A stretch of DNA of 64,000 bases. It comes from an uncultured cyanobacterium (GTDB lineage: Bacteria; Cyanobacteriota; Cyanobacteriia; PCC-6307; Cyanobiaceae). Under the pieces are notes generated by a model, which searched no databases, had not been told where the DNA came from, and saw only the letters and a list, made by a program, of their open reading frames with translations. Numbering within the stretch: position 1 is the stretch's first letter; each line of letters opens with the position of its first letter. The stretch covers positions 1-64,000 of the forward strand of contig CAIQIA010000018.1 of NCBI GenBank assembly GCA_903871775.1, in the 5' to 3' direction. Both the position numbers and the translations under genes were made by a program. Positions 8,492 to 55,167 of this stretch are shown here, piece by piece.

Positions 8492-9250
8492 ATGGCGGTT
8501 GCCCCTGCTGCCCATTCCGGCAAGGAGACGATCCTCGTGGTCGACGACGAGGCCAGCATCCGACGCATCCTGGAAACCCGCCTGTCGATGATCGGCTACC
8601 AGGTGGTCACCGCCGCCGACGGCGAGCAGGCCCTCGAGCTCTTCCGGCAGCAGCCGGCCGACCTGGTGGTGCTTGACGTGATGATGCCCAAGCTCGACGG
8701 CTACGGCGTCTGCCAGGAGCTGCGCAAGGAATCCGACGTGCCCATCGTGATGCTCACGGCCCTGGGCGACGTGGCCGACCGCATCACCGGCCTCGAGCTG
8801 GGGGCCGACGACTACGTGGTCAAGCCCTTCAGCCCCAAGGAGCTCGAGGCGCGCATCCGCTGCGTGCTGCGCCGGGTCGAGAAGGAGCAGGGCAGCAGCG
8901 GCATCCCCAACTCCGGCGTGATCCAGGTGGGTCAGCTGCGGGTCGACACCAACAAGCGTCAGGTGTTCCGCGCCGACGAGCGGATCCGGCTCACCGGCAT
9001 GGAGTTCAGCCTGCTGGAACTGCTCGTCAGCCGTTCGGGAGAACCCTTCAGCCGCGGCGAGATCCTCAAGGAGGTCTGGGGCTACACCCCCGAGCGCCAC
9101 GTCGACACGCGGGTGGTGGACGTGCACATCTCGCGGCTGCGCTCGAAGCTCGAGGATGACCCGGCCAACCCCGAGCTGATCCTCACCGCCCGCGGGACGG
9201 GGTACCTTTTTCAGCGAATCATCGACGGATCCGGCGGCGACGCCGGCTGA
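8492..9250 (+). CDS. rpaB: Response regulator RpaB (OmpR family, Ycf27)
   Basis: A 252-residue essential regulator that represses high-light genes and activates photosystem genes through HLR1 sites, working with histidine kinase NblS. The receiver has DDE (18-20), phosphoacceptor Asp62 in VVLDVMMPKLDG, Thr89 and Lys111. The winged-helix domain includes [20 protein letters not shown], the RpaB/Ycf27 version, distinct from that of RpaA. An upstream TTGACT (8423-8428) could be a -35, but the matching -10 is weak. plsX starts only 5 bases after the stop, so rpaB probably heads an operon with lipid genes. Confidence 0.93.
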   Translation: MAVAPAAHSGKETILVVDDEASIRRILETRLSMIGYQVVTAADGEQALELFRQQPADLVVLDVMMPKLDGYGVCQELRKESDVPIVMLTALGDVADRITGLELGADDYVVKPFSPKELEARIRCVLRRVEKEQGSSGIPNSGVIQVGQLRVDTNKRQVFRADERIRLTGMEFSLLELLVSRSGEPFSRGEILKEVWGYTPERHVDTRVVDVHISRLRSKLEDDPANPELILTARGTGYLFQRIIDGSGGDAG

Positions 9251-9255
9251 TCCCC

Positions 9256-10500
9256 ATGGCCGAGCCCCCCTCCCCGTCCGGCAGGCCCCGTCGTCCCAGG
9301 CCCGGCAGGGCCATGAAACGCCTGGTGATCTGGTACCGCCGCACCGGGCCGGTCATCCGCCTGGTGGGCACCGCCGGCACCGCCCTCACCCCCATCAAGG
9401 CCCGCCTGGGCCTCACCCCCGAACCGGAGGCGGCGACGCTCCACGGCCCCAGGCTGACCGTGGCCGTGGATGGCATGGGCGGCGACCATGCCCCCGGTCC
9501 GATTCTGGAAGGCTGCCTGGATGCCGTCAGCGAGCTGCCCCTGCGGATCGTGTTCCTGGCCGAAGAGGCCCCCCTGCGGGCGGCCGTGGCGGCGATAGGG
9601 CTGCAGGAACGGTTGGAGCAGGCCCGGGGGGCGGGGCTGATCGAGCTGCGGCCGGCCGGGACCTCGGTGGGGATGGACGATGAGGCCACCAGCGTGCGAC
9701 GCCGCCGGGACGCCAGCATCAACCTGGCCATGGACCTGGTGAAGAGCGGTGAGGCCCTGGCGGTGTACTCGGCCGGCAATTCAGGCGCCGTGATGGCCTC
9801 GGCGATTTTCCGCCTCGGACGGCTGCGGGGCATCGAACGGCCGGCGATCGGCGCCCTCTTTCCCACCAACGACCCCAACCGTCAGGTGCTGGTGCTGGAT
9901 GTGGGGGCCAACACCGACTGCAAACCCTCGTTTCTGCACCAGTTCGCCCTGCTCGGGAACATCTACAGCCGTGACGTGCTCGGTGTCGCCCGCCCCCGGA
10001 TCGGCCTGCTGAACATCGGCGAGGAGGAGTGCAAGGGCAACGACCTCGCCCTCCGCACCCACCCGCTGCTCGCCGCCGAACCCCGCCTGCACTTCGCCGG
10101 CAACTGCGAGGGCCGGGATGTGCTCTCGGGATCGTTCGACGTGGTGGTCTGCGACGGCTTCACCGGCAACGTGCTGCTCAAGTTCCTCGAATCGGTCGGG
10201 GGCGTGCTGCTCGAGGTGCTCAAGGCCGAACTGCCCCGGGGCCGCCGCGGCAAGGTCGGTTCGGCGTTCCTGAAGAACAACCTGCGGCGGATCAAGAAGC
10301 GGCTCGACCACGCCGAGCACGGTGGTGCGCTGCTGCTGGGGGTGGACGGCATCTGCGTGATCGGCCATGGCAGCAGCCGGGCCCGCTCCGTGGTGGGGGC
10401 CCTGCGGCTCGCCCATGCCGCCGCCAGCCGCGGAACCCTGGCCAGCCTGCATCAGCTCACCGGCGACGCCGAGGCCGCCGTGGCGGCTGTGGTTGACTGA
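9256..10500 (+). CDS. plsX: Phosphate acyltransferase PlsX
   Basis: A 414-residue enzyme that converts acyl-ACP to acyl-phosphate, the donor for the first step of phosphatidic acid synthesis. The catalytic core begins at LTVAVDGMGGDHAPGPILEG (about 70) and includes LDVGANTDCKP and VVCDGFTGNVLLK. About 65 extra residues precede the core (including MKRLVIWYRRTGP), an extension I recall from picocyanobacterial homologues. ATG 9256 is used; an in-frame ATG at 9313 is an alternative start. It sits between rpaB (5-base gap) and fabH, a classic plsX-fabH-fabD order. Confidence 0.92.
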   Translation: MAEPPSPSGRPRRPRPGRAMKRLVIWYRRTGPVIRLVGTAGTALTPIKARLGLTPEPEAATLHGPRLTVAVDGMGGDHAPGPILEGCLDAVSELPLRIVFLAEEAPLRAAVAAIGLQERLEQARGAGLIELRPAGTSVGMDDEATSVRRRRDASINLAMDLVKSGEALAVYSAGNSGAVMASAIFRLGRLRGIERPAIGALFPTNDPNRQVLVLDVGANTDCKPSFLHQFALLGNIYSRDVLGVARPRIGLLNIGEEECKGNDLALRTHPLLAAEPRLHFAGNCEGRDVLSGSFDVVVCDGFTGNVLLKFLESVGGVLLEVLKAELPRGRRGKVGSAFLKNNLRRIKKRLDHAEHGGALLLGVDGICVIGHGSSRARSVVGALRLAHAAASRGTLASLHQLTGDAEAAVAAVVD

Positions 10501-43657: not shown

Positions 43658-44347
43658 TCAGCGGGACGTGGTGGAGAGGATGAGATTGCGATTGGTGTTG
43701 CCACCACCACCTCCACCACCACCGTTGCTGCTGGTGGTGATCCCGACGACGGCGCCCACCACGGCGGCGGCACCCAGGAGGATCCAGCCAAGGCTGGAAC
43801 CGGCGGCGGCGGCGGCAACAGGTGCTGCTGCGGCAGGCGCACTGAAGGCCAACGGGCTCACAGGCACGAGGGGATCACATGCACAGGCCTGAACGATGCG
43901 AAGGGGCGAGGTTGTCGTGGCGGGGACCGATCCAGACGTCGACTTCCAGAGACCGCGCACTGGCGGGGCTGGTGTGTAGGGCCTGCAACCACAGACGCCG
44001 GTGAGGTCAACCACCCAGGTGCTGCCCGGTGGGATCGACTGGCTGGGTTGCACCACCAGTTGGGTGCCGGACTGGGTGAGCTGGACCCGCTGGGGATCCG
44101 AGGCCTCCATGGTCTCGACAGTGCTCAGCGTGCCGTCCTGGCCACGCTCAAGAATGCGGACCGGACCCTTGATGCCCTGGGTGCTGCGGCCGAGCTGAAT
44201 GACAAAACGATCGGAGGCGTCGGTGACAGCGACAGCCTCTGGAGCGGCGACCTGTCCAGTCTGAGCAATGGGAACCGGCTCGACCGCCACGGCCGGCAAA
44301 GCCGCCACGGTGAACATGAATCCAACGGCAAGACAAGTTGGACGCAT
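43658..44347 (-). CDS. Secreted/membrane protein with two CxC motifs and Gly-rich tail
   Basis: A 229-residue protein of unknown function. A signal peptide (1-21) is followed by a beta-rich domain (SDRFVIQLGRSTQGIKGPVR to STWVVDLTGVCGC), two CxC motifs (Cys119/121 and Cys155/157), an Ala/Pro stretch, a small-residue helix (about 186-203, GxxxG-like) and a Gly8 run before NTNRNLILSTTSR. I recognise no family. It is the last minus-strand gene of the export arm, 135 bases after the barrel-like gene, so it may have its own promoter. It is not a clear exosortase substrate because no PEP-CTERM motif is seen. Confidence 0.6.
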   Translation of the reverse strand: MRPTCLAVGFMFTVAALPAVAVEPVPIAQTGQVAAPEAVAVTDASDRFVIQLGRSTQGIKGPVRILERGQDGTLSTVETMEASDPQRVQLTQSGTQLVVQPSQSIPPGSTWVVDLTGVCGCRPYTPAPPVRGLWKSTSGSVPATTTSPLRIVQACACDPLVPVSPLAFSAPAAAAPVAAAAAGSSLGWILLGAAAVVGAVVGITTSSNGGGGGGGGNTNRNLILSTTSR

Positions 44348-44369
44348 TGACCTAGTGCCTAATAACCAT

Positions 44370-44388
44370 CCTTACCGAGATCGTAAGG
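44370..44388 (-). promoter_or_regulatory. Short dyad upstream of the CxC protein gene
   Basis: CCTTAC (44370-44375) and GTAAGG (44383-44388) form a perfect 6-bp inverted repeat with a 7-base spacer, 22 bases upstream of the minus-strand start at 44347. It could be an operator or mRNA hairpin; the region also has AT-rich TTATTA that could act as a -10. The rest of 44389-44482 shows nothing else. Confidence 0.3.
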
Positions 44389-44482
44389 ACGTGAACGGGG
44401 GATGACCATGGCATGTGCGGGATCCCAGGGGATTTGCACAAGTCCATTGAGACCCATGCAGGCGATCGGCGGTGGGTCTGGT

Positions 44483-45601
44483 TCAGAAGGACTGGGTCAG
44501 ACGTCCGTAGAGACGGGCGCTGCATGAGCGGTCGGGACAGTCGTCCTGGATGTAGCTGGGGGTGTTACCCAGGAAATCGGTGGCCAGAACCGAAAGGGTG
44601 AGTGGCCAGTCGGCGAAGGGTTTGACGGCCACACCCGCCGAGAAGCCGTAGCCGAACCACTCGGCGCCGATCGAGATTCGATCATTGAAGAAGAATCCAA
44701 GGGAGCCGATGGGGCCCCAGGTGCAGTCACTGCCGCTGGGGAAGCTGGTGCTGGTGATCGCACGCGAGCCGCCGCAACCGGTGCGGCCGAGCCAGCCATT
44801 GCCCTTGTAGCCATACAGATCGGAACCGACACCGGCCGTGGCCACCAGCAACGGCGGACGCTCGCCGGCACCGAGGGGCACCGCCTGGGAGAGCACCGCG
44901 TAGAAGTCGCGGCCGAGGTCGATCTTGTCGTCGAACTGCACCACCTGCTCCCCACCGATGGCCAGGCCCGTCTGGGGACCCAGGTTGACGGCGGCACGGA
45001 ACCCCAGGTGCTGTCCTGAGAAGGCCGGCGTGCCGCTGTTGCGGCTGCTCAGACTCTGGACACCCCACTGCAGGGCCAGGCTGGCGGGCCCCACCCGCAG
45101 GGGGGTGATGTCCACGTAGGCCTGGGCATCGGCGCAGTCGATGGTGTCCTTCGAACAGGGACGGGTGCGGCTGATGCCCACCCCAGTGACCGAGCCCCAG
45201 AGGCGCTGGTCCTGGGCGAAACCGTTGGGAACCTGGAAGACGGCCGCGGGGTAGACCCGTCCGTTGACCGTCAGATCCCTGGCCAGCCCCCGCACCACCA
45301 GGCGCCGACGGGGCTGGGTTTCGGTCACCGCCGCCGGCGTCGCCGGTTCCGGCACCGGCACCGCATCAGGCACGGTGACAGGCACCGGCGCAGGATCGAC
45401 CTGCTGGGACTGGGGCGGGGTCCAGGCCTGGGGTGACGGTGTCTGCCAGCGGGCCTGGGGGGCTGACCCCGGACTCTGCTCCTGCCAGGCCACGGCGGCG
45501 CGGGGGGACGGTGCCACCTGCCATTCCACGGCCCTGGCCTGCACGGGCAGCAGCCCGGCCAGCAGAACGATCAGAGGGTGGAGGCTGGGAACGGATCTCA
45601 T
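44483..45601 (-). CDS. Putative outer-membrane beta-barrel protein
   Basis: A 372-residue protein of unrecognised family. It has a signal peptide (1-24, ending VQARA), a Pro/Val-rich segment (68-92), an RRR motif at 98-100, then about 270 residues of alternating hydrophobic/polar strands with many Gly and aromatics (VDITPLRVGPASLALQWGVQ, GFFFNDRISIGAEWFGYGFS) and a C-terminal Phe (RLYGRLTQSF), typical of outer-membrane barrels. Six Cys (149, 156, 276, 293, 355, 360) may pair as disulfides. Its start overlaps the stop of the proline-rich gene by 4 bases, so it is coupled to wza. A role as an export partner is inference. Confidence 0.65.
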   Translation of the reverse strand: MRSVPSLHPLIVLLAGLLPVQARAVEWQVAPSPRAAVAWQEQSPGSAPQARWQTPSPQAWTPPQSQQVDPAPVPVTVPDAVPVPEPATPAAVTETQPRRRLVVRGLARDLTVNGRVYPAAVFQVPNGFAQDQRLWGSVTGVGISRTRPCSKDTIDCADAQAYVDITPLRVGPASLALQWGVQSLSSRNSGTPAFSGQHLGFRAAVNLGPQTGLAIGGEQVVQFDDKIDLGRDFYAVLSQAVPLGAGERPPLLVATAGVGSDLYGYKGNGWLGRTGCGGSRAITSTSFPSGSDCTWGPIGSLGFFFNDRISIGAEWFGYGFSAGVAVKPFADWPLTLSVLATDFLGNTPSYIQDDCPDRSCSARLYGRLTQSF

Positions 45602-46110
45602 GGCAGGGGGGAGGGAGCATCAGGGGGCTCGGGGAGCAGGGCCCTGGCCCGCAGCACGGACTCCTGCAGAGCATCAGGACCGGGGAGCGCCTCGATGGCG
45701 GACTCCTCGGACACCGCAACAGCCGTGGTGGTGGTGGTGGTGGCCGTGGTGGCCATCGCGGGCACCGGCAACGGAACCGGATCGGGCGCCGGCACCACAA
45801 CGGGGGTGGGGGCAGGCATCGGGACGTGGGCCACAACCTGACGCTGCGGTCGGATCCGCGGCGGCGGCTTCGCTGGCGGCTGGAACACCCGCAGCTGACG
45901 GGGACGCCGCAGAGGCACCACCGACGGGGGGGAGGCCGGGGTGACATCAGGCACCGACACCGGCAGGGGCACAGAGGCCGGCAGGGGCACCGGCGCCATC
46001 GCCTGAACCCCGGCCTCCGGAGCCAGCAGAGACTCGCCGAACAGGGCACCCCACAGGGCCAGGTTGGGGCCGACCACAAGCAGCAGCAGGCGCGCGTCGT
46101 TCACCATCAC
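45598..46110 (-). CDS. Proline-rich single-helix protein
   Basis: A 170-residue protein of unknown function. A hydrophobic N-terminal helix (about 7-27) is followed by about 90 residues rich in Pro, Val and Arg (SVPLPVSVPDVTPASPP, PTPVVVPAPDPVPLPVP), a Thr run encoded by six GTG repeats on the plus strand (45725-45742) and an acidic C-terminus. The stiff Pro-rich stretch after one helix recalls TonB-like periplasm-spanning proteins, but no TonB C-terminal domain is present. It is sandwiched by 4-base overlaps between wza and the barrel-like gene. Composition resembles residues 68-92 of the latter. Confidence 0.6.
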   Translation of the reverse strand: MMVNDARLLLLVVGPNLALWGALFGESLLAPEAGVQAMAPVPLPASVPLPVSVPDVTPASPPSVVPLRRPRQLRVFQPPAKPPPRIRPQRQVVAHVPMPAPTPVVVPAPDPVPLPVPAMATTATTTTTTAVAVSEESAIEALPGPDALQESVLRARALLPEPPDAPSPLP

Positions 46111-47132
46111 CGCAGCAGCTGGAACAGGGTGAGGCCGTTGACCAGGCCCCCGAGGGTGCGCATGGCCCCTCCGACGGCGTCGGTGGCCCGGCCCAGGGCG
46201 CTGCGGTTGACCACAATGGTGTCGCCGTCCCGCAGGGGGGGGTTGGCCTGGCTGGACACGGGTTCGTCCAGGGACAACCTGAAGCTCTGGCGGGTGACGC
46301 TGCCGTTGCGGTTGAGCCGAACCAGCTGCACGGATCCCTGGTCGGCCCGCATCTCCCGCGGGCCTCCGGCGGCGAGCAGGGCCTGCACCAGAGGCGTGCC
46401 GGCCGGAAGCTCCTGGCGACCTGGATTGTTGACCTCGCCCATCACGTTCACCCGGATCTGCCGGGGGGAGAGGTTGTTGGCGGCCACCTCAGTGGCGACG
46501 GCATCGGGCTGAGCGACACGACCGACCCGCACGATGTCGCCATCGAAGAGCAGGGGGTTGTTGATCTGGTCTCCGTCACGCACCAGCGAGAGCAGGTCGA
46601 AGCGCGCCATTTTGTAGCTGTCGCCCCGGCCCGGCAGGCGGCGACGGACGGCGACGTCGCGCAGGTTCGCGTTCACCGTGACTCCGCCCGCCTTCTGGAT
46701 GGCGTCGACCAGGGTCGGCGGACCGAAGGCGGCGGTGCCCACCGTCTTCGAGGCATCGGCGCTTGCGGCACTGTTGCCGGGAGCCATCGAATACAGACCG
46801 GGGGTGGTCACCTCACCCACCAGCGAGACCCGCACCGGCCGGGGGCGGACCAGGCGGAGCGTCAGCTCAGGCCGCCGCAGCTGGCGGCCGTAGAGCCGGG
46901 TCAGAGCGGCCGTGGCCTGGGGCAGGGTGAGGCCGTCAAGCTGCACCGTGCCCACCAGCGGCAGGGCCGCGGTGCCATCGCTGAGCACCTCCACCGGTCC
47001 GGAGTAGCTGCGGGCGTCGTGCAGCTGCAGGTCGAGGGCATCGCCGGCACCAAGGATGTACTGATCGCTCGCCTGGGCAGGGGGTGCCACGGGCAGGGCC
47101 GCCAGCAGCAGGGGCAGAGCGATGGCAGGCAT
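46107..47132 (-). CDS. Wza-type polysaccharide export protein
   Basis: A 341-residue outer-membrane-associated export protein. It has a signal peptide (1-22), the Poly_export domain (YILGAGDALDLQLHDARSYS, GTAALPLVGTVQLDGLTLPQ) and two SLBB domains (VSLVGEVTTPGLYSMAPGN, VNVMGEVNNPGRQELPAGTP). No lipobox Cys is seen. A good ribosome site (GGAGGT, 47137-47142) precedes ATG 47132. It is probably the channel for a Wzy-dependent polysaccharide whose synthesis genes lie at 51-64 kb, and is divergent from the hpsJ-like gene. Confidence 0.87.
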   Translation of the reverse strand: MPAIALPLLLAALPVAPPAQASDQYILGAGDALDLQLHDARSYSGPVEVLSDGTAALPLVGTVQLDGLTLPQATAALTRLYGRQLRRPELTLRLVRPRPVRVSLVGEVTTPGLYSMAPGNSAASADASKTVGTAAFGPPTLVDAIQKAGGVTVNANLRDVAVRRRLPGRGDSYKMARFDLLSLVRDGDQINNPLLFDGDIVRVGRVAQPDAVATEVAANNLSPRQIRVNVMGEVNNPGRQELPAGTPLVQALLAAGGPREMRADQGSVQLVRLNRNGSVTRQSFRLSLDEPVSSQANPPLRDGDTIVVNRSALGRATDAVGGAMRTLGGLVNGLTLFQLLR

Positions 47133-47218: not shown

Positions 47219-47908
47219 ATGACAACGGCTCTCCCCACTGGCCATGGCCGTTCCCTGGCCCGGCTCCTCAGCTACACGCTGCTGAGCCTGTACCTGCTGG
47301 GGCTGCTGGCCAGCCTGCTGCCGCTGCCGATCAACGATCTCAACGGCGCCCTCGGGCTGCTGGCTCAGGCCATCGACGGCGGTGGCCTGGTGGCGGTGGC
47401 GGTGGTCGCCTTCCACGCCGGTCTGGGCGGCGACAGCCGACCCGCCCCCTGGGAGCAGCGGCTGGGGGCCCTGGCTCCCAGCCTGCTGACAGGGGCGGCC
47501 CTGGTGTACCTGGCCCTGGGCCTGAGCGTGCTGCCGGTGGGCCTCAGGATCCGCAGCCAGGGGATGGCCCAACTGCAGGGGCAGGTCGCCGGGGGCCGCA
47601 GCCTGCTGCAGGAGCTGCGCCGCTCGGTGCAGGCGGCGCCGGACCCGCAGGCCCTGGGGACCCTGCTGCGCAACCAGCCCCAGCTGGCCCAGGGTCTCAC
47701 CGGTGACCCCGCCCGGGACCGGCCGCTGCTGCTGGCCCGGATCGACAGGGACGTGGCGGCCCTCACGGAGGCCGCCAGACGCCGGGGGGCCGACACCAAC
47801 GCGCGGTTGCTGCGGCAGATGCTGCGCCTGCTGCTCAGCGGCGTGGTGCTGGCGGGCTTCCATCTGCTGGCCGCACTGATCTGGCGCGTTCCGGCCCGGA
47901 GGTCATGA
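47219..47908 (+). CDS. HpsJ-like membrane protein
   Basis: A 229-residue protein with about four transmembrane helices (about 15-35, 53-66, 86-106 and 206-222) and a cytoplasmic or periplasmic helical region between the third and fourth. Layout and the motif LLSLYLLGLLASLLPLPIND resemble HpsJ, first found in a hormogonium polysaccharide secretion locus of Nostoc. Function is unknown. It overlaps the exosortase gene by 4 bases and shares an 86-base divergent region with wza. Confidence 0.65.
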   Translation: MTTALPTGHGRSLARLLSYTLLSLYLLGLLASLLPLPINDLNGALGLLAQAIDGGGLVAVAVVAFHAGLGGDSRPAPWEQRLGALAPSLLTGAALVYLALGLSVLPVGLRIRSQGMAQLQGQVAGGRSLLQELRRSVQAAPDPQALGTLLRNQPQLAQGLTGDPARDRPLLLARIDRDVAALTEAARRRGADTNARLLRQMLRLLLSGVVLAGFHLLAALIWRVPARRS

Positions 47909-48714
47909 CCCTGCCCCTGCTGCTGCTGGGGACCATCGCCTCGGCCCAGCTCACCCTCTACTGGCGCTCGGGGGGTCGCCTCGAGACCGTCGCCCTCATG
48001 GCCAGCCTCAGCTGGCTGGGGGGGGCCCTGCTGCTGGCCGATGCCGGCGAACCAGCGCCGGTCCGCCGTCGGGCCTGGGCCCTGGGCCTGGCCGGACTGG
48101 TCTGGAGCCTGCTGGTGCTGACGAACACCGCCCGGCTGTACGACCCGTTGCTGCATCTGCTGCCCCTGGTGGTGCTGCCGGCCCTCGGGCTGGTGGGCGG
48201 AGTGCCGCTGCGCTCGCGGGCGCTGGTCGACCTGGTGGCCATGGGCCTGCTGCTGCCCCTTCAGCTGCTGCTCACCCGGCTGCTGCCCCTGCTGCCGCTG
48301 GCCCGGACCACAGCGGAACTCTCGGCCTTTCTGGTCTGGCTGAGCGGCGGCTCGGCCCTGGCAGACGGTGCCGCGGTGCGGCTGCCGGAACGCACCCTCG
48401 TGGTAGGGGCGAGCTGCACCGGCGCCGAGACCCTCAGCCTCTGCCTGGCGGGCCTGGTGATGCTGGCCCTGCTCTTCCCGCTGCCCTGCCTGCAGCGCCA
48501 CCGGGGCAGCGGGCTGCTGCTGCTCGGAGGCCTCAGCCTGGGGGCCGCCTTCGTGCTCAACGGCCTGCGGGTGGCGGTGCTGGCCCTGACCCCTGTCAAC
48601 GCCTTCGTCTTCTGGCACGACGGCGGCGGCTCCCACCTGTTCGCCATGGCCAGCCTGGCCGTGCTGGTGGCGGCCTACCTCGCCCTGACCGAATGGAGCC
48701 TGCGGCAGTCATGA
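47905..48714 (+). CDS. Cyanoexosortase (transpeptidase-like membrane protease)
   Basis: A 269-residue integral membrane protein with about eight helices. The exosortase catalytic set is present: Cys171 in VVGASCTGAETLS, Arg222 in VLNGLRVAVLAL and His244 in WHDGGGSHLFAMAS. Exosortases cleave PEP-CTERM-like C-terminal tails and may attach the proteins to surface polysaccharide. Location beside wza, wzc and the EPS operon fits that idea. It is flanked by an HpsJ-like gene and its associated protein with 4-base overlaps on both sides. Substrate proteins are not visible in the window. Confidence 0.82.
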   Translation: MTLPLLLLGTIASAQLTLYWRSGGRLETVALMASLSWLGGALLLADAGEPAPVRRRAWALGLAGLVWSLLVLTNTARLYDPLLHLLPLVVLPALGLVGGVPLRSRALVDLVAMGLLLPLQLLLTRLLPLLPLARTTAELSAFLVWLSGGSALADGAAVRLPERTLVVGASCTGAETLSLCLAGLVMLALLFPLPCLQRHRGSGLLLLGGLSLGAAFVLNGLRVAVLALTPVNAFVFWHDGGGSHLFAMASLAVLVAAYLALTEWSLRQS

Positions 48715-49259
48715 CCACACCGGGGGTCCGCCGGGCGGTGCTGCTGGGGCTGCTGGCCTGGGGGGGAGCTGTCGCCATCGACAGCGCCATCCGCGGCGGC
48801 GGGGACGGAGGGCCCCTGGTGCTGCCTGAGAGGTTGAAGTTGCCCTCGGGGACGCTGCACCGCCGCACCGCCGCACCCGACAGGCGGCCGCTGCCTGCAG
48901 GCGTTCTGGTGCAGCAGGCCGTCGACTACGGCGGCGGCACCGGGGGCAGACTGAAGGTGCGGCAGCTGCAGCTGGCCTCCCGCGGCCACAGCGTGGCGCT
49001 GCCCCTCGACGATGTGAACAGGGCCCTTGCCGCTGCCGGCCCGGCGGGCCGCTGCCTGGGCGATGGGCGCCCGGCCCCAGCGTGGGGCCCACGGCAGCAG
49101 CTCGCCTGGCTGGCGGGGCTGCGACCCCGGCCCGCCCACCGGTGCCTCTGGGTGGCCGGCTCCCCCAGCGCCGCCGCCGCCCTGGGCCGGGCGCTGGCCG
49201 TCCCAGGGGCCGACCCTCCGCCGGGGGAAGTGTCCGCCGCCCGCCCTGGCCCCCGTTGA
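48711..49259 (+). CDS. Cyanoexosortase system-associated protein
   Basis: A 182-residue protein with one N-terminal helix (about 8-25) and a soluble domain whose only clear features are GILV-like VLVQQAVDYGG and RCLWVAGSPSAAAALGRALA. It overlaps the exosortase stop (ATGA) and corresponds in position and size to the small protein that usually follows cyanoexosortase A. By analogy to EpsI it may assist exosortase. The C-terminus is unusually Pro/Arg/Ala-rich. Recognition is mainly by context. Confidence 0.65.
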   Translation: MTTPGVRRAVLLGLLAWGGAVAIDSAIRGGGDGGPLVLPERLKLPSGTLHRRTAAPDRRPLPAGVLVQQAVDYGGGTGGRLKVRQLQLASRGHSVALPLDDVNRALAAAGPAGRCLGDGRPAPAWGPRQQLAWLAGLRPRPAHRCLWVAGSPSAAAALGRALAVPGADPPPGEVSAARPGPR

Positions 49260-49279
49260 CCCTGGATAGGGTCGCGCCC

Positions 49280-51511
49280 ATGGCTGCCCAGACCCTGCCG
49301 CAGACCAGGCCCCCCAGCCCGGACCTCCCCCAGGCGGTGCTGCAGGACGGTGGCAGCCCTGATCAGACCTCCGGCGGGCGCCACGACGGTGACTCCTCCC
49401 TGGTGCGGCTGCTGCGGGTGCTGCACCGGCGACGCGCCACGGCCCTGCTGACCGCCGGAGCCGTGACGTTGCTCGTTGGTCTGTTCACCCTGCAGCGCCG
49501 CCTGGTGGCGCCCCTCTACCAGGGGGGCTTCACCCTGCTGATCGCCGACCCGGTGAACGAGGCCGGTGCCGCCGCCCCCGTGACCGATGGGGGCGGCGCC
49601 TCCCTGGAGGCCCTGGCGCGCAACGCCATGCGCAACGACGTGCCGACCCTGATCCGGGTGCTGCAGAGCCCGGCGGTGCTCGGCCCCGTGGACGATGCCC
49701 TGCGGGCCCGCGGCATCAGCGAACTGCCCACGGTCAAGGTCAGCCTGCAGGCCGCCGATCCCGACCAGAAGACCCCGATCCTGGCCAGTGGGGTGCTGGG
49801 TGTGCAGGCGGTGGGCCGGGATCCACAGGTGCTGCAGCTGACCCTGGGCCTGGCCCAGCGGGAGATGCTGGGCTGGGCCCTCGAGCAACGGCGGGCCAAG
49901 CTCGCCCAGGGCGTGCGCTTCCTCGACCAGCAGGCGCCGGTGCTGCAGCAGAAAAGCGATCGGCTGCAACGGGAACTGGAGCGGTTTCGCACCGCCCATG
50001 GCGTGATTCAACCGGAACAGGAAGCCACCACCCTGCGCAGCCAGCTCGAAGCGGTGCGCAACCGTGCCATCGCCCAGCAGGCCGAACAGGCCCGGCTGCT
50101 GGAGCTGCGTGAGCAGGTGCGCCGCGGGAACCTGACCGCCCGCGCCTTCGTTGATACCCCCGCGGAAGGCAGCCGCGGCGGCAGCGTGGCGGTGGGGCTC
50201 GACAACCAGCCCCTGCTCGAACAGCTGACGAAGGTCGAGCAGCAACTGGCCGAGACCCGGGCCCAGTTCCGCGACGACAGCCTTCAGGTGCGCAGCCTGA
50301 TGGCCACCCGCGACCAGCTGCGACCCCTGGTCCACCGCAAGGAGCTGCAGGCCCTCGACACTTCCCTTCGACTCAACGCCCAGGCCCTGCAGGCCAGCGT
50401 CGGCCAGCAGAACCAGCTGGTCAGCGAGTTCCGGCGGCTGCCGGCCCTGCTGCGGGCCTATGAAGCGATCAACCAGCGGCTGCGGGTGGCCCAGGGCAAC
50501 GTCGAGAGCTACCTGCGCACCCGCGAGCAGTTCCAGCTCGAGATCGCCCAGAAGAATGTGCCCTGGAAGGTGATCGTGCCGCCGGCGGTCAATCCCGAAC
50601 CGGTGGAACCGAAGCTCTCGCGCGGACTGCTGCAGAGCCTGGCCCTCGGGCTCGTGGCCGGCGCGGGGGCCGCCCTGGTGCGCGATCGCCTCGACACCGC
50701 CCTTCAGGATCCCGACGACGCACGACGGGCCCTGGCCCTGCCCCTGCTGGGCCACATTCCCTGCCAGGGAGCGGGTCCCGACCGGGATGCCGAGGGGTTC
50801 GCCCGGCAGGAAGCCCTGCGGGAACTGGCCTCGAGCCTCCGCTTTCTCGACGGGGCCCGCGACCGCCACAGCCTCGGACTCACCAGCGCCCTGCCCGCCG
50901 AAGGCAAAAGCCACGTCGCGCTGCTGCTGGCCCGCACCCTGGCCGAACTGGGCCAGCGGGTGCTGCTGGTGGATGCCGACCTGCGACGGCCCCAGCTGCA
51001 CCAGCGCCTCGGCCTGAGCAACAGCCGCGGCCTCACCACCCTGCTGGCGGCCGACCCCCCAGACCTGTTTCAGGTGCTGCAACCGGTGCCGGGCCTCGAC
51101 GCCCTGGCCCTGCTGGCGGCGGGGCCCCTGCCCCAGGACCCGCCCCGGCTGCTCGGATCGGCGGTGATGCCATCCCTGATGCAGCAGCTGCGGGACAGCG
51201 GTCTTTTCGATGTGGTGCTCTACGACCTGCCACCGGTGCTGGGCCTGGCCGACGCCTCGCTGCTGGCCGGGCATCTGGACGGGGTGCTGCTGCTGGCGAG
51301 CCTCGGCCAGGTGCCGCGGCGCCGCTCCCAGGCGGCCCTCGAGCGCCTGCGGGAGGCCCGTGCCTCCGTGCTGGGGGTGGTGACCAACCGCCTGCGGCCC
51401 TCGGAGGCCGATGCCGATCGTCATCCCACCTACCGCTACTACACGAGCACCGCCTCCGAGGGGGCCAGCGACGACCTGCGACAGCGCTTCAGGCGGTGGC
51501 TCGAGGGTTGA
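49280..51511 (+). CDS. Wzc-type tyrosine kinase / chain-length regulator
   Basis: A 743-residue BY-kinase. Two transmembrane helices (about 57-75 and 455-472) flank a periplasmic Wzz-like domain with a long coiled coil (about 200-400). The kinase domain has Walker A SALPAEGKSHVALLLA, Walker A' VLLVDADLRRPQ and Walker B VVLYDLPPVLGLADA. The tail has only a small Tyr cluster (YRYY) for autophosphorylation. It controls polysaccharide chain length and export together with wza. The start at 49280 is 20 bases after the exosortase-associated gene; the 3' end overlaps convergent capD-like gene by 23 bases. Confidence 0.88.
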   Translation: MAAQTLPQTRPPSPDLPQAVLQDGGSPDQTSGGRHDGDSSLVRLLRVLHRRRATALLTAGAVTLLVGLFTLQRRLVAPLYQGGFTLLIADPVNEAGAAAPVTDGGGASLEALARNAMRNDVPTLIRVLQSPAVLGPVDDALRARGISELPTVKVSLQAADPDQKTPILASGVLGVQAVGRDPQVLQLTLGLAQREMLGWALEQRRAKLAQGVRFLDQQAPVLQQKSDRLQRELERFRTAHGVIQPEQEATTLRSQLEAVRNRAIAQQAEQARLLELREQVRRGNLTARAFVDTPAEGSRGGSVAVGLDNQPLLEQLTKVEQQLAETRAQFRDDSLQVRSLMATRDQLRPLVHRKELQALDTSLRLNAQALQASVGQQNQLVSEFRRLPALLRAYEAINQRLRVAQGNVESYLRTREQFQLEIAQKNVPWKVIVPPAVNPEPVEPKLSRGLLQSLALGLVAGAGAALVRDRLDTALQDPDDARRALALPLLGHIPCQGAGPDRDAEGFARQEALRELASSLRFLDGARDRHSLGLTSALPAEGKSHVALLLARTLAELGQRVLLVDADLRRPQLHQRLGLSNSRGLTTLLAADPPDLFQVLQPVPGLDALALLAAGPLPQDPPRLLGSAVMPSLMQQLRDSGLFDVVLYDLPPVLGLADASLLAGHLDGVLLLASLGQVPRRRSQAALERLREARASVLGVVTNRLRPSEADADRHPTYRYYTSTASEGASDDLRQRFRRWLEG

Positions 51512-53396
51512 GGGTCGCCCGGGGTCGCTGGGGCAGGGCATGGACGGTGGCCCCCGGCGACACCGGCCTGTAATCAGGCACCAGGGTCGGCAGCAGGGCG
51601 AGGGCCTGGCGTTCCTCACCATGCTCGAGGTGGGCGAGCAGCCGGGCCACGGCGGGCAGGAGCCGTTCCGCCGCCAGGCCCCCCTCGCGGGCGCGACGGA
51701 TGCGGGGGTGACGGGTGGGCTCGTCGTCGGGGGAGATCAGCAGCTCCTCGCGCAGTTTCTCGCCCGACCGCAGGCCCGTGAAGCGGATGGCGACCTCACC
51801 GTCGGGATGGTCGGCATCGCGGAGGGTGCAGCCCGAGAGCAGGATCATCTGCCGGGCCAGATCGACGATGCGGACGGGCTCACCCATGTCGAGCACAAAC
51901 ACCTCGCCCCCCCGCGCCAGGCCGGCGGCCTGCAGCACCAGCTGCACCGCCTCGGCAACGGTCATGAAGTAACGGGTGACCTCGGGATGGGTGACCGTGA
52001 CCGGCCCGCCGGCCTCGATCTGCGACCGGAACCGTGGCACCACCGACCCCGAGGAGCCCAGGACGTTGCCGAAGCGCACGATCGCGCAGACCAGGCCCCC
52101 CTCCTCGGCGGCCTGGCACTGCACCAGCTGCTCGCAGATGCGTTTGCTGACCCCCATCACATTGGTGGGTCGCACGGCCTTGTCGCTCGAGACCAGCACG
52201 AAGCGGCGCAGACCCGCCGTCCGGGCCGCCGCCAGGGCCGCCTGGGTGCAGCGGATGTTGTTGGCCAGTCCGCTGCAGGGGTTGGTCTCCACCAGCGGCA
52301 CATGCTTGTAGGCGGCCGCATGCACCAGCACCTCGACCCCCTGGCGGCGGCAGAGGTCGGTGAGGGCCCGGCCGTCGCAGGCATCCAGCAGCACCGCCAG
52401 GGCCCGATCCCCATCGCCGCCGTCGATCAGCCTCTGCTGGATGGCGTAGAGCGCGGCCTCGCTGCGCTCCACGAGCACCAACCGGCGGGCCCCGGCCCTG
52501 AGGACCTCTCGGCAGAGCTCGGAGCCGATCGATCCGCCGGCACCGGTGACCAGCACACAGCGATCGGCGACCGCCTCGGCCAGCAGACCGGGCAGGGGCT
52601 GACCCGGCTCCCGGCCGAGCAGCTCCTCGAGGGAGAGGGGCCGCAGCTCGGTGAGCTGCTGGCGGCCTGCCGCCAGCTCCGCCAGGGACGGGACCGTGAG
52701 CACCTGCAGACCCTGGCGCCGCAGGGCGGCGGCAATGGCCAGCCGGCGGGTGCGCGAGAGGGACGGCAGGGCCAGCAGCGCCTGCAGCACCCCATGGCGC
52801 TGGATCAGGGAGGACAGACGGGAGGGCGCGGCGATCACCACCCCCTCCATCGACCGGCCCCAGAGGCGGGGATCGTCGTCAAGCACGGCCACCAGCCGCA
52901 CCCGACCCTCCCGCAGCAGTTCGCGGGCCAGGCGCTGGCCCGCGGCGCCGGCGCCGTAGATCACCGTCGCCGGTCGCACGGCCAGGGCGGGCAGGGTGGC
53001 CTGGCGGCCCAGGTCCCGCAGCACGATGCGGCTGCCCACCAGCAGTCCGCTGAGCAGCAACCAGAGGAGCGGCCAGAAGGAGCGGGGGGGCAACGGCCCG
53101 CCGGCCAGGGTGACGCCCAGCAGCACCAGCAGCACCGCCACCAGCGAACGGGGCAGCAGGTCGTAGAGCGTGCGGCTGCCTGACGCCCGGGTGAGGCCCC
53201 GATACCAGCCGCTGACGAGCAGCCAGGGCAGGGTGATGGCTTCCGCCACCAGCAGCAGCCAGGGCAGCTGGGCCAGAAAGTGCTCAGGCAGGGGCAGGTT
53301 GAGCCTGAGAACAAAGGCTCCCCAGACCGCCAGGGCGGTGAGGCCTGCGTCAAGGGCCAGGAGCACGAGCAGCCGCGGGCGCAGACGGGGGGCCAT
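51489..53396 (-). CDS. FlaA1/CapD-type nucleotide-sugar 4,6-dehydratase
   Basis: A 635-residue membrane protein with four N-terminal helices (about 8-125), a first Rossmann domain (VIYGAGAAGQRLARELL) and a catalytic SDR domain (VLVTGAGGSIGSELCREVL, ACDGRALTDLCRRQGVEVLV, SSDKAVRPTNVMGVSKR). It matches WbpM/PglF/CapD, enzymes that convert UDP-GlcNAc to the 4-keto-6-deoxy sugar; Met replaces the SDR Tyr as in WbpM. It is last in the large minus-strand operon, 56 bases after the aminotransferase. Confidence 0.9.
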   Translation of the reverse strand: MAPRLRPRLLVLLALDAGLTALAVWGAFVLRLNLPLPEHFLAQLPWLLLVAEAITLPWLLVSGWYRGLTRASGSRTLYDLLPRSLVAVLLVLLGVTLAGGPLPPRSFWPLLWLLLSGLLVGSRIVLRDLGRQATLPALAVRPATVIYGAGAAGQRLARELLREGRVRLVAVLDDDPRLWGRSMEGVVIAAPSRLSSLIQRHGVLQALLALPSLSRTRRLAIAAALRRQGLQVLTVPSLAELAAGRQQLTELRPLSLEELLGREPGQPLPGLLAEAVADRCVLVTGAGGSIGSELCREVLRAGARRLVLVERSEAALYAIQQRLIDGGDGDRALAVLLDACDGRALTDLCRRQGVEVLVHAAAYKHVPLVETNPCSGLANNIRCTQAALAAARTAGLRRFVLVSSDKAVRPTNVMGVSKRICEQLVQCQAAEEGGLVCAIVRFGNVLGSSGSVVPRFRSQIEAGGPVTVTHPEVTRYFMTVAEAVQLVLQAAGLARGGEVFVLDMGEPVRIVDLARQMILLSGCTLRDADHPDGEVAIRFTGLRSGEKLREELLISPDDEPTRHPRIRRAREGGLAAERLLPAVARLLAHLEHGEERQALALLPTLVPDYRPVSPGATVHALPQRPRATLNPRATA

Positions 53397-53452
53397 CGCC
53401 TGACGCTATGCAGTGCGCCGAAGGCTGGCCGGTGGGTTGTGCCAGTGGGCCC

Positions 53453-54643
53453 TCAGGCGGCAGCGGCGGCAAGCACCCGCCGCAGTCCGGCGATCCAGCG
53501 CTCCAGCTCCCCATCGGGCAGGGTCGGCGCCAGCGGCAGCATCAGGCTCGTCTCCCCCAGGCGGCGGGCGACGGGCAACGGCTGCGGCGGCGCCAGGCCG
53601 GCGGTGAGGAAACTGCGCTCGCGGTAGATCTCGCTGCACGACCCCGACAGGGCCGGCAGGCCGAGAGCCTCCAGTTCGGCCATGATCCGGTCCCGGCTCC
53701 AGCCCGCCGCCAGGGCCCCGGGCCGCACGAAGGCATGGAAGCGGTACCAGGCGTGCTCGACGTGGGCCGGCGGCAGCGGCACCCGCACCGCCGCCAGGTC
53801 AGCGAGGGCATCACTGAGCAGGGTCGCCTGGCGCTGGCGACAGGCCCGCCACTCGGGCAGCCGCCGCAGCTGCACCCGCCCGATGGCGCTCTGCATCTCG
53901 GTGAGCCGGAAGTTGCTGCCGAAGCGGTCATGGAGCCAGCGGAACCCCGGAGGGTGGTCGCCCCGCTGCAGGGCCTCGCGGGTCTTGCCATGGTCCCGCA
54001 GGGACCAGATCGCGTCATGCAGATCGTCGCGGCCGGTGGTGACCATGCCCCCCTCGCCGCCGGTGCTGATGATCTTGTCCTGGCAGAAGCTCCAGGCCGC
54101 CACCGCCCCGAGGGAACCCACCGAGCGCCAGGTGCCGCCCGACCGCCAGCGGGCGCCATGGGCCTGGGCGCAGTCCTCCACCAGACCGAGCCCATGGGCC
54201 CGGGCCAGGTCGTCGAGCTCCTCCAGGGGGGCGGGCCAGCCGTTGAGATGCACCACGGCGATCGCCCGGGTGCGGGGGCCGATCAGGGGGGCCACCGTGG
54301 CTGCCGTCAGGCACTGGCTGTCGGGATCGACATCGGCGAACACCGGCTTCACCCCCAGCAGCACGGCGGCGCTGGCGGTCGCCACGAAACTGCGGGGTGT
54401 GGTGATCAGCTCGTCGCCGGGCCGCAGGCCGAGGGCCCGGTAGGCCGCCGCCAGGGCGAGGGTGCCGTTGGCGATGGTGAGGGCGTGGGGCACCCCGCAC
54501 CAGGCCGCGAACTCCCGTTCGAACAACCGCCCCTCATCGCCGGTCCAATGGTTCACCCGGCCGGAGGCCAGCACCCGCAGCACAGCCGCCTGCTGCTCGT
54601 CGTCGTAGTGGGGCCAGAACGGCCCTGGGCGGCTGGTCGTCAT
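53453..54643 (-). CDS. DegT/DnrJ/EryC1/StrS aminotransferase
   Basis: A 396-residue PLP-dependent sugar aminotransferase. It has ANGTLALAAAYRALGLRPGD, VEDCAQAHGARW, the Schiff-base lysine in SFCQDKIISTGGEGGM and SNFRLTEMQSAIGRVQL. It should convert the 4-keto sugar made by the downstream dehydratase to an amino sugar. The start overlaps the WcaF-like gene stop by 4 bases. A role in making UDP-4-amino-4,6-dideoxy-HexNAc is inference from neighbours. Confidence 0.9.
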   Translation of the reverse strand: MTTSRPGPFWPHYDDEQQAAVLRVLASGRVNHWTGDEGRLFEREFAAWCGVPHALTIANGTLALAAAYRALGLRPGDELITTPRSFVATASAAVLLGVKPVFADVDPDSQCLTAATVAPLIGPRTRAIAVVHLNGWPAPLEELDDLARAHGLGLVEDCAQAHGARWRSGGTWRSVGSLGAVAAWSFCQDKIISTGGEGGMVTTGRDDLHDAIWSLRDHGKTREALQRGDHPPGFRWLHDRFGSNFRLTEMQSAIGRVQLRRLPEWRACRQRQATLLSDALADLAAVRVPLPPAHVEHAWYRFHAFVRPGALAAGWSRDRIMAELEALGLPALSGSCSEIYRERSFLTAGLAPPQPLPVARRLGETSLMLPLAPTLPDGELERWIAGLRRVLAAAAA

Positions 54644-55167
54644 CGCAGGGCCACCGGCCGCGCCGGATTGCCGGCCACCACGACGCCGGCGGCGACATCG
54701 CGCATCACCACCGCCCGGGCCCCCACCACCGCCGCCGCCCCGATCGTCACCCCCGGACCGATGAACGCCTCGGCGGCGACCCAGACCCCGTCGTCGAGGG
54801 CGATCGGTGGCCGCAACAGCGGAAAGGCCGGATCACGGTGGTCATGGCTGCCGGCGCAGAGGTGGCAGCCCTGGGAGAGCACCACACCGCGGCCCAGGCG
54901 GATGGGGCCCAGGGCGTAGAGGGTGACGGCACGGGCGACGACACAACCGTCGCCGAGCTCCAGATTCCATGGCTGATGGACCCGGGCCGCCGGGTAGATG
55001 CGCACCTGGCGGCCGACCCGTGCCCCGAAGCCCCGCAGCAGCAGGGTGCGCCACCACCAGAGGGGCCTCGGGCTGCAGCGCCAGAGCGGCCGCAGCAGGG
55101 CCCAGGCGACCCGGCGCAGATCATCACGGCGGCGGTAGGGACGCCGCTGGATCACGGCCATGGTCAT
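54640..55167 (-). CDS. WcaF-like hexapeptide acetyltransferase
   Basis: A 175-residue left-handed beta-helix acyltransferase. An amphipathic N-terminal part (RPLWRCSPRPLWWWRTLLLR) is followed by VRIYPAARVHQPWNLELGDG, the catalytic His region CHLCAGSHDHRDPAFPL and VVAGNPARPVALR. It resembles WcaF of colanic acid synthesis and probably O-acetylates a sugar of the polymer. Three in-frame ATG codons lie close together; 55167 gives the ATGA overlap with the upstream glycosyltransferase. Confidence 0.82.
   Translation of the reverse strand: MTMAVIQRRPYRRRDDLRRVAWALLRPLWRCSPRPLWWWRTLLLRGFGARVGRQVRIYPAARVHQPWNLELGDGCVVARAVTLYALGPIRLGRGVVLSQGCHLCAGSHDHRDPAFPLLRPPIALDDGVWVAAEAFIGPGVTIGAAAVVGARAVVMRDVAAGVVVAGNPARPVALR

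Follow-up and report, generated by a model that had tools for sequence, protein, structure and literature searches.

An OPX-linked barrel-like protein with a tryptophan-motif tail: a candidate accessory of polysaccharide export in picocyanobacteria

Background

How polysaccharides pass across the outer membrane of cyanobacteria is poorly known. A picocyanobacterial stretch of 64,000 nucleotides (the window), of Synechococcus/Cyanobium type, raises this question in a concrete form: a wza gene is followed on the same strand by three further genes, one of which encodes a barrel-like protein. Do these products belong to the export machine and, if so, what would they do in it? A 2015 survey concluded that most EPS-related genes have been lost in the marine Synechococcus/Prochlorococcus clade (PMC4594306). 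The nearest named relative of the source is the metagenome-assembled genome of Synechococcus sp. UW140, a sister species with 85% identity in the barrel-like protein, the relevant contig of which is called L031 here.

Results

Gene organization

On the minus strand, the order is wza, a gene for a proline-rich protein, the barrel gene and a gene for a secreted protein; the initial annotation had proposed these as a set, and all four open reading frames are genuine. The wza product (46107..47132, 341 aa) has a signal peptide, a Poly_export domain, two SLBB domains and a C-terminal segment with helix propensity. The next gene (45598..46110, GTG start) encodes a Pro/Val-rich protein of 170 aa with one transmembrane (TM) segment, and the third (44483..45601) a barrel-like protein of 372 aa that consists of a signal peptide, a Trp/Pro tail and a barrel domain, with six Cys and a C-terminal Phe. 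The secreted protein (43658..44347, 229 aa) belongs, as a divergent member, to a family that relatives encode directly downstream of the barrel. In line with what had been stated for the three proteins other than Wza, Pfam and NCBIfam matches are absent for all three.

The overlaps of 4 bases on either side of the proline-rich gene are likewise present. The stop codon of this gene and the start codon of the barrel gene share ATGA, and the stop codon of wza and the GTG start share GTGA, the overlap shrinking to 1 base should translation begin at the next ATG. Both overlaps occur again in L031. Between the barrel gene and the secreted gene there is no overlap but a spacer of about 135 bases. The overlapping arrangement is limited to the genus of the window; elsewhere the barrel gene mostly either diverges from wza or follows wzc.

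The plus strand carries an HpsJ-like gene divergent from wza (47219..47908; NCBIfam 3.5e-11, sub-threshold), which is kept in L031, a cyanoexosortase A-like gene (47905..48714; PF09721 2.8e-14, and TIGR03763 2.2e-17, sub-threshold), and a gene for a Wzc-like PCP with a tyrosine autokinase domain (49082..51511; TIGR01005 2.8e-35, sub-threshold, with ParA and CbiA matches), the actual start of which is probably further in than 49082. Beyond it, two plus-strand open reading frames (51411-53183 and 53408-54919) have no Pfam or NCBIfam match, and their tblastn relatives are found in the polysaccharide loci L042, L044 and L033.

The wza product belongs to the OPX family (Pfam: Poly_export 1.6e-15, SLBB 4.4e-21), and its PDB relatives are polysaccharide export proteins, Wza among them. 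Its length exceeds 280 aa, the cut-off at or below which an OPX protein is defined as short in the OPX literature. The C-terminal segment is conserved, and residues 310-340 are a helix in a low-confidence AlphaFold2 model built from two sequences; Wza_C is absent among its Pfam matches. Compared with the sister L031, the dN/dS ratio is 0.05 for wza, 0.15 for the barrel gene and 0.53 for the proline-rich gene.

The proline-rich open reading frame is coding, and its TM segment and C-terminal stretch are conserved. No credible relative of this protein was found outside the genus of the window, and other genera have different genes downstream of wza; for these reasons, the protein is an add-on and not the core of the system, and the idea that it is an essential partner is not supported. 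The initial annotation had also noted that this protein and the tail of the barrel protein share a P-V-P-V-x-V-P-D style. This likeness did not hold up: the BLASTP E-value is 0.38, the best 9-mer match is equalled in 8 of 200 shuffles, and the style is missing from both sister proteins. Derivation of the linker and the barrel tail from each other was thus rejected, the likeness being one of composition only.

The barrel-like protein and its tail

The barrel family is not represented in Pfam, NCBIfam or the PDB: the protein has no Pfam or NCBIfam match at E-values up to 1 and no credible PDB match in a profile search. Of 300 Cyanobiaceae genomes, 53 have a homolog, and a profile search over the class found homologs in 104 of 291 genomes. 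No phage record that encodes the barrel was found, and a scan of viral contigs for relatives was also empty.

In the window protein, the Trp/Pro tail covers approximately residues 24-99 and the barrel domain residues 100-372 (about 270 residues). The six Cys are invariant in 25 close orthologs, the window protein included, and in the alignment they form three pairs, each between neighbouring predicted strands and all on the same side, in what would be the outer loops. About 12 strands can be read from the alignment; AlphaFold2 with two sequences gave a pLDDT of 29. A C-terminal Phe is expected in BAM substrates. Amphipathicity was found in 13% of windows along the protein, as against 5% in shuffles (shuffle maximum 18%), and because this excess is only modest, the outer-membrane location and the strand count stay predictions. 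The barrel domain is homologous to a superfamily of cyanobacterial barrels with SLH domains (class profile search; hhalign 98.8% to a distant relative, L101). The C-terminal Phe, the strand pattern and this homology together support a putative outer-membrane beta-barrel. The earlier proposal of a predicted barrel with six Cys therefore stands in full for the Cys, and for the barrel as a prediction from sequence. In many orthologs, the domain opens with VRGLARGITVNG (residues 104-107 in the window protein), of which VRGL is common to the VRGLW of the secreted proteins described below; this may be chance.

The tail between the signal peptide and the barrel is Pro-rich and mostly contains 3-4 Trp. 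Over 41 tails, the motif W-x-x-[VLIMA]-P was counted 65 times, compared with 8 on average and never more than 17 in shuffles. The window tail matches it exactly once (VEWQVAP) and contains three more Trp with similar spacing. The motif is absent from 17 distant barrel homologs outside the family, 16 of which have no OPX gene in the fetched 20 kb. Some distant homologs (L095, L099 and L107) have an SLH domain, which is absent from the window protein according to Pfam. Since the barrels that lack the motif are mostly without a nearby OPX gene and some carry SLH instead, the type of tail and the linkage to OPX go together. We infer that the Trp motifs bind OPX.

The one distant class-level barrel found near an OPX gene is that of L106 (barrel 8853-10085, exosortase 11161, OPX 16741, wzc 18021), where an exosortase gene and wzc are also within 10 kb.

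Linkage to OPX genes

OPX is present in 51 of the 53 genomes with the barrel and in 131 of the 247 genomes without it (Fisher p 2e-10, a value inflated by relatedness, which is uncorrected); the two barrel genomes without OPX are incomplete. In 29 of the 40 loci examined, the distance between the barrel gene and an OPX gene is no more than 5 kb. At least three layouts were found: wza divergent from the barrel gene, with the secreted genes and often cysS beyond it; wza-wzc-barrel; and the layout of the window, with wza, the proline-rich gene and the barrel gene on one strand. A linkage that survives such rearrangement argues for a functional relation.

In one genus (g6), the barrel gene does not adjoin OPX. 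One locus of this genus and two of g48 have the barrel gene grouped with the secreted and VRGLW genes and no OPX gene close by, so that adjacency is not universal. The g6 barrel gene is still followed by cysS, an order also seen in relatives in which wza is retained at this site, and this shared order suggests that wza was lost from the barrel site.

The initial annotation had called for a survey of co-occurrence with wza and exosortase genes. Linkage of the barrel and secreted genes to wza or polysaccharide genes was found in many genera, so that the homologues are not scattered. The exosortase half fared otherwise: tblastn gave no exosortase match in the 40 neighbourhoods, and several barrel genomes have no exosortase, so that an exosortase partnership was rejected as a general rule. 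A second type of OPX locus (G062, G162, G279, G261, G186 and G107) has an exosortase gene at some 5 kb from OPX but not near the barrel; in the window, exosortase and barrel are combined at one OPX gene.

A gene for a dual-specificity-phosphatase-like protein (HCxAGxxRSP) is often found by wza (L054-L060, L062, L063 and others), and in L045 and L049 it sits between wzc and the barrel gene. Its product is a possible substitute for Wzb. The gene was not found in the window by tblastn.

Secreted proteins

The secreted protein of the window has a signal peptide, a beta-rich domain, the two CxC motifs described earlier, a TM segment and a Gly-rich tail that ends in SR. The gene directly downstream of the barrel gene belongs to one family in 18 of the 24 close orthologous loci, at times in tandem copies, and the products share a signal peptide, a conserved beta-rich stretch, Cys, a TM segment and a Gly-rich end. 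The alignment and hhalign (96.9% over 74 residues) place the window protein in this family as a divergent member. In 13 loci, the next gene encodes a separate small secreted protein that ends in CxY...VRGLW. Neither the secreted nor the VRGLW protein gave anything above cut-off in Pfam or NCBIfam.

A separate VRGLW gene is absent from the genomes of the window and its sister. The secreted protein of the window contains an inserted stretch, CGCRPYTPAPPVRGLW, in which PVRGLW is embedded, and this looks like a fusion or a transfer of the motif. Because the motif is embedded in this way, we suggest that the secreted and VRGLW proteins act together.

The TM segment, Gly-rich stretch and SR end were also considered as a general sorting signal. 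This was rejected, as 12 genomes gave no strong match outside the cassette family except one in G062. That match (G062:C1:1611882-1612013, genus g6; E 2.4e-6) resembles the TM segment and Gly-rich tail of the secreted family and is far from the barrel gene.

Discussion

The most likely reading is that the window protein is an OPX-associated accessory of the outer membrane, a cyanobacterial barrel in which an SLH domain or other tail has been swapped for Trp-motif repeats. In the complete mechanism, to which we give a probability of roughly one in two and in which function is inferred, the barrel and the secreted protein would assist the Wza/Wzc machine by which picocyanobacteria export polysaccharide, as accessory components in the outer membrane and the periplasm. 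A barrel of about 12 strands would sit in the outer membrane with three outer loops, presumably closed by disulfides, and the W-x-x-[VLI]-P repeats of its periplasmic tail would bind either the OPX ring or Wzc. Docked in this way, the barrel would be kept where the polymer leaves, and there it may organise or anchor the emerging polymer, as barrels of the Wzi/GfcD type do elsewhere. The secreted protein, beta-rich with Cys pairs and a C-terminal membrane anchor, and the VRGLW protein where there is one, would act on the same path, and the proline-rich protein would be a lineage-specific spacer, anchored in the inner membrane, that was added to the operon. In a narrower picture, which is more tentative and less likely than not, this tail would plug a small disulfide-looped barrel onto the Wza ring, and the barrel would work with two previously undescribed secreted proteins.

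Among known systems, EpsX, ExoB and WzpB of Myxococcus and VpsM of Vibrio are likewise outer-membrane barrels whose genes adjoin an OPX gene within polysaccharide loci. Such composite translocons have been described, in which a short OPX protein without an outer-membrane helix is coupled to an 18-stranded barrel (PMC9601211, PMC9603273). If the window system were of this kind, the polymer would cross the outer membrane through the barrel, and Wza would form no more than the periplasmic channel, as in EpsY/EpsX. The coupling at the gene level, with OPX and barrel no more than about five genes apart, and the missing Wza_C match would fit; however, the OPX protein is long and keeps its conserved, helix-like C-terminal segment, and the barrel looks smaller, the alignment suggesting about 12 strands instead of the 16-18 of known export barrels. 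For these reasons we do not file the system with the composite translocons, an assignment that we consider unlikely; its Trp-motif tail and accompanying secreted proteins also set it apart from them. Wzi and GfcD/YjbH are outer-membrane barrels encoded near Class 1/2 OPX genes, the products of which keep their own pore helix (PMC9603273). By analogy, the window barrel may be more like these accessories beside a self-sufficient OPX protein, its function being unproven, although its barrel domain is much smaller and gave no match to the Wzi or GfcD family models in Pfam and NCBIfam (E up to 1).

It is rather improbable that the barrel is a general envelope protein, such as a tether between outer membrane and cell wall or a small porin, and that its link to wza reflects the clustering of envelope genes. 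The distant homologs across cyanobacteria, SLH-fused in part and mostly without OPX nearby, and the cassettes kept without OPX in g6 and g48 fit this explanation. The close subfamily, on the other hand, has no SLH domain but its own Trp-motif tail and six Cys, co-occurs strongly with OPX, and stays with wza, wzc and the phosphatase-like gene through rearrangements. Far less credible is the TonB-like link put forward in the initial annotation, by which the proline-rich protein would pass energy from the inner membrane to the barrel or Wza. Like TonB of the TonB/ExbBD system, this protein has one TM segment, at its N-terminus, and a long Pro-rich periplasmic stretch, and it is translationally coupled to wza and the barrel gene; but the TonB C-terminal domain is not matched in Pfam or NCBIfam at E-values up to 1, the protein is found in one genus while the barrel is widespread, and there is no TonB-dependent receptor, the barrel domain being too short for such a transporter and no plug-like domain having been found. 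The periplasm-spanning export gate, the other proposal made there, is a possibility.

Conclusions

If the narrower picture is true, these picocyanobacteria would have a separate solution for handling polymer at the outer membrane, in which the wall-binding tail of a general barrel has become an exporter-binding tail. The tail motif is short, and its binding partner is directly testable. The OPX-linked cassette offers concrete, hitherto unannotated candidates for the missing outer-membrane parts of polysaccharide export in picocyanobacteria.
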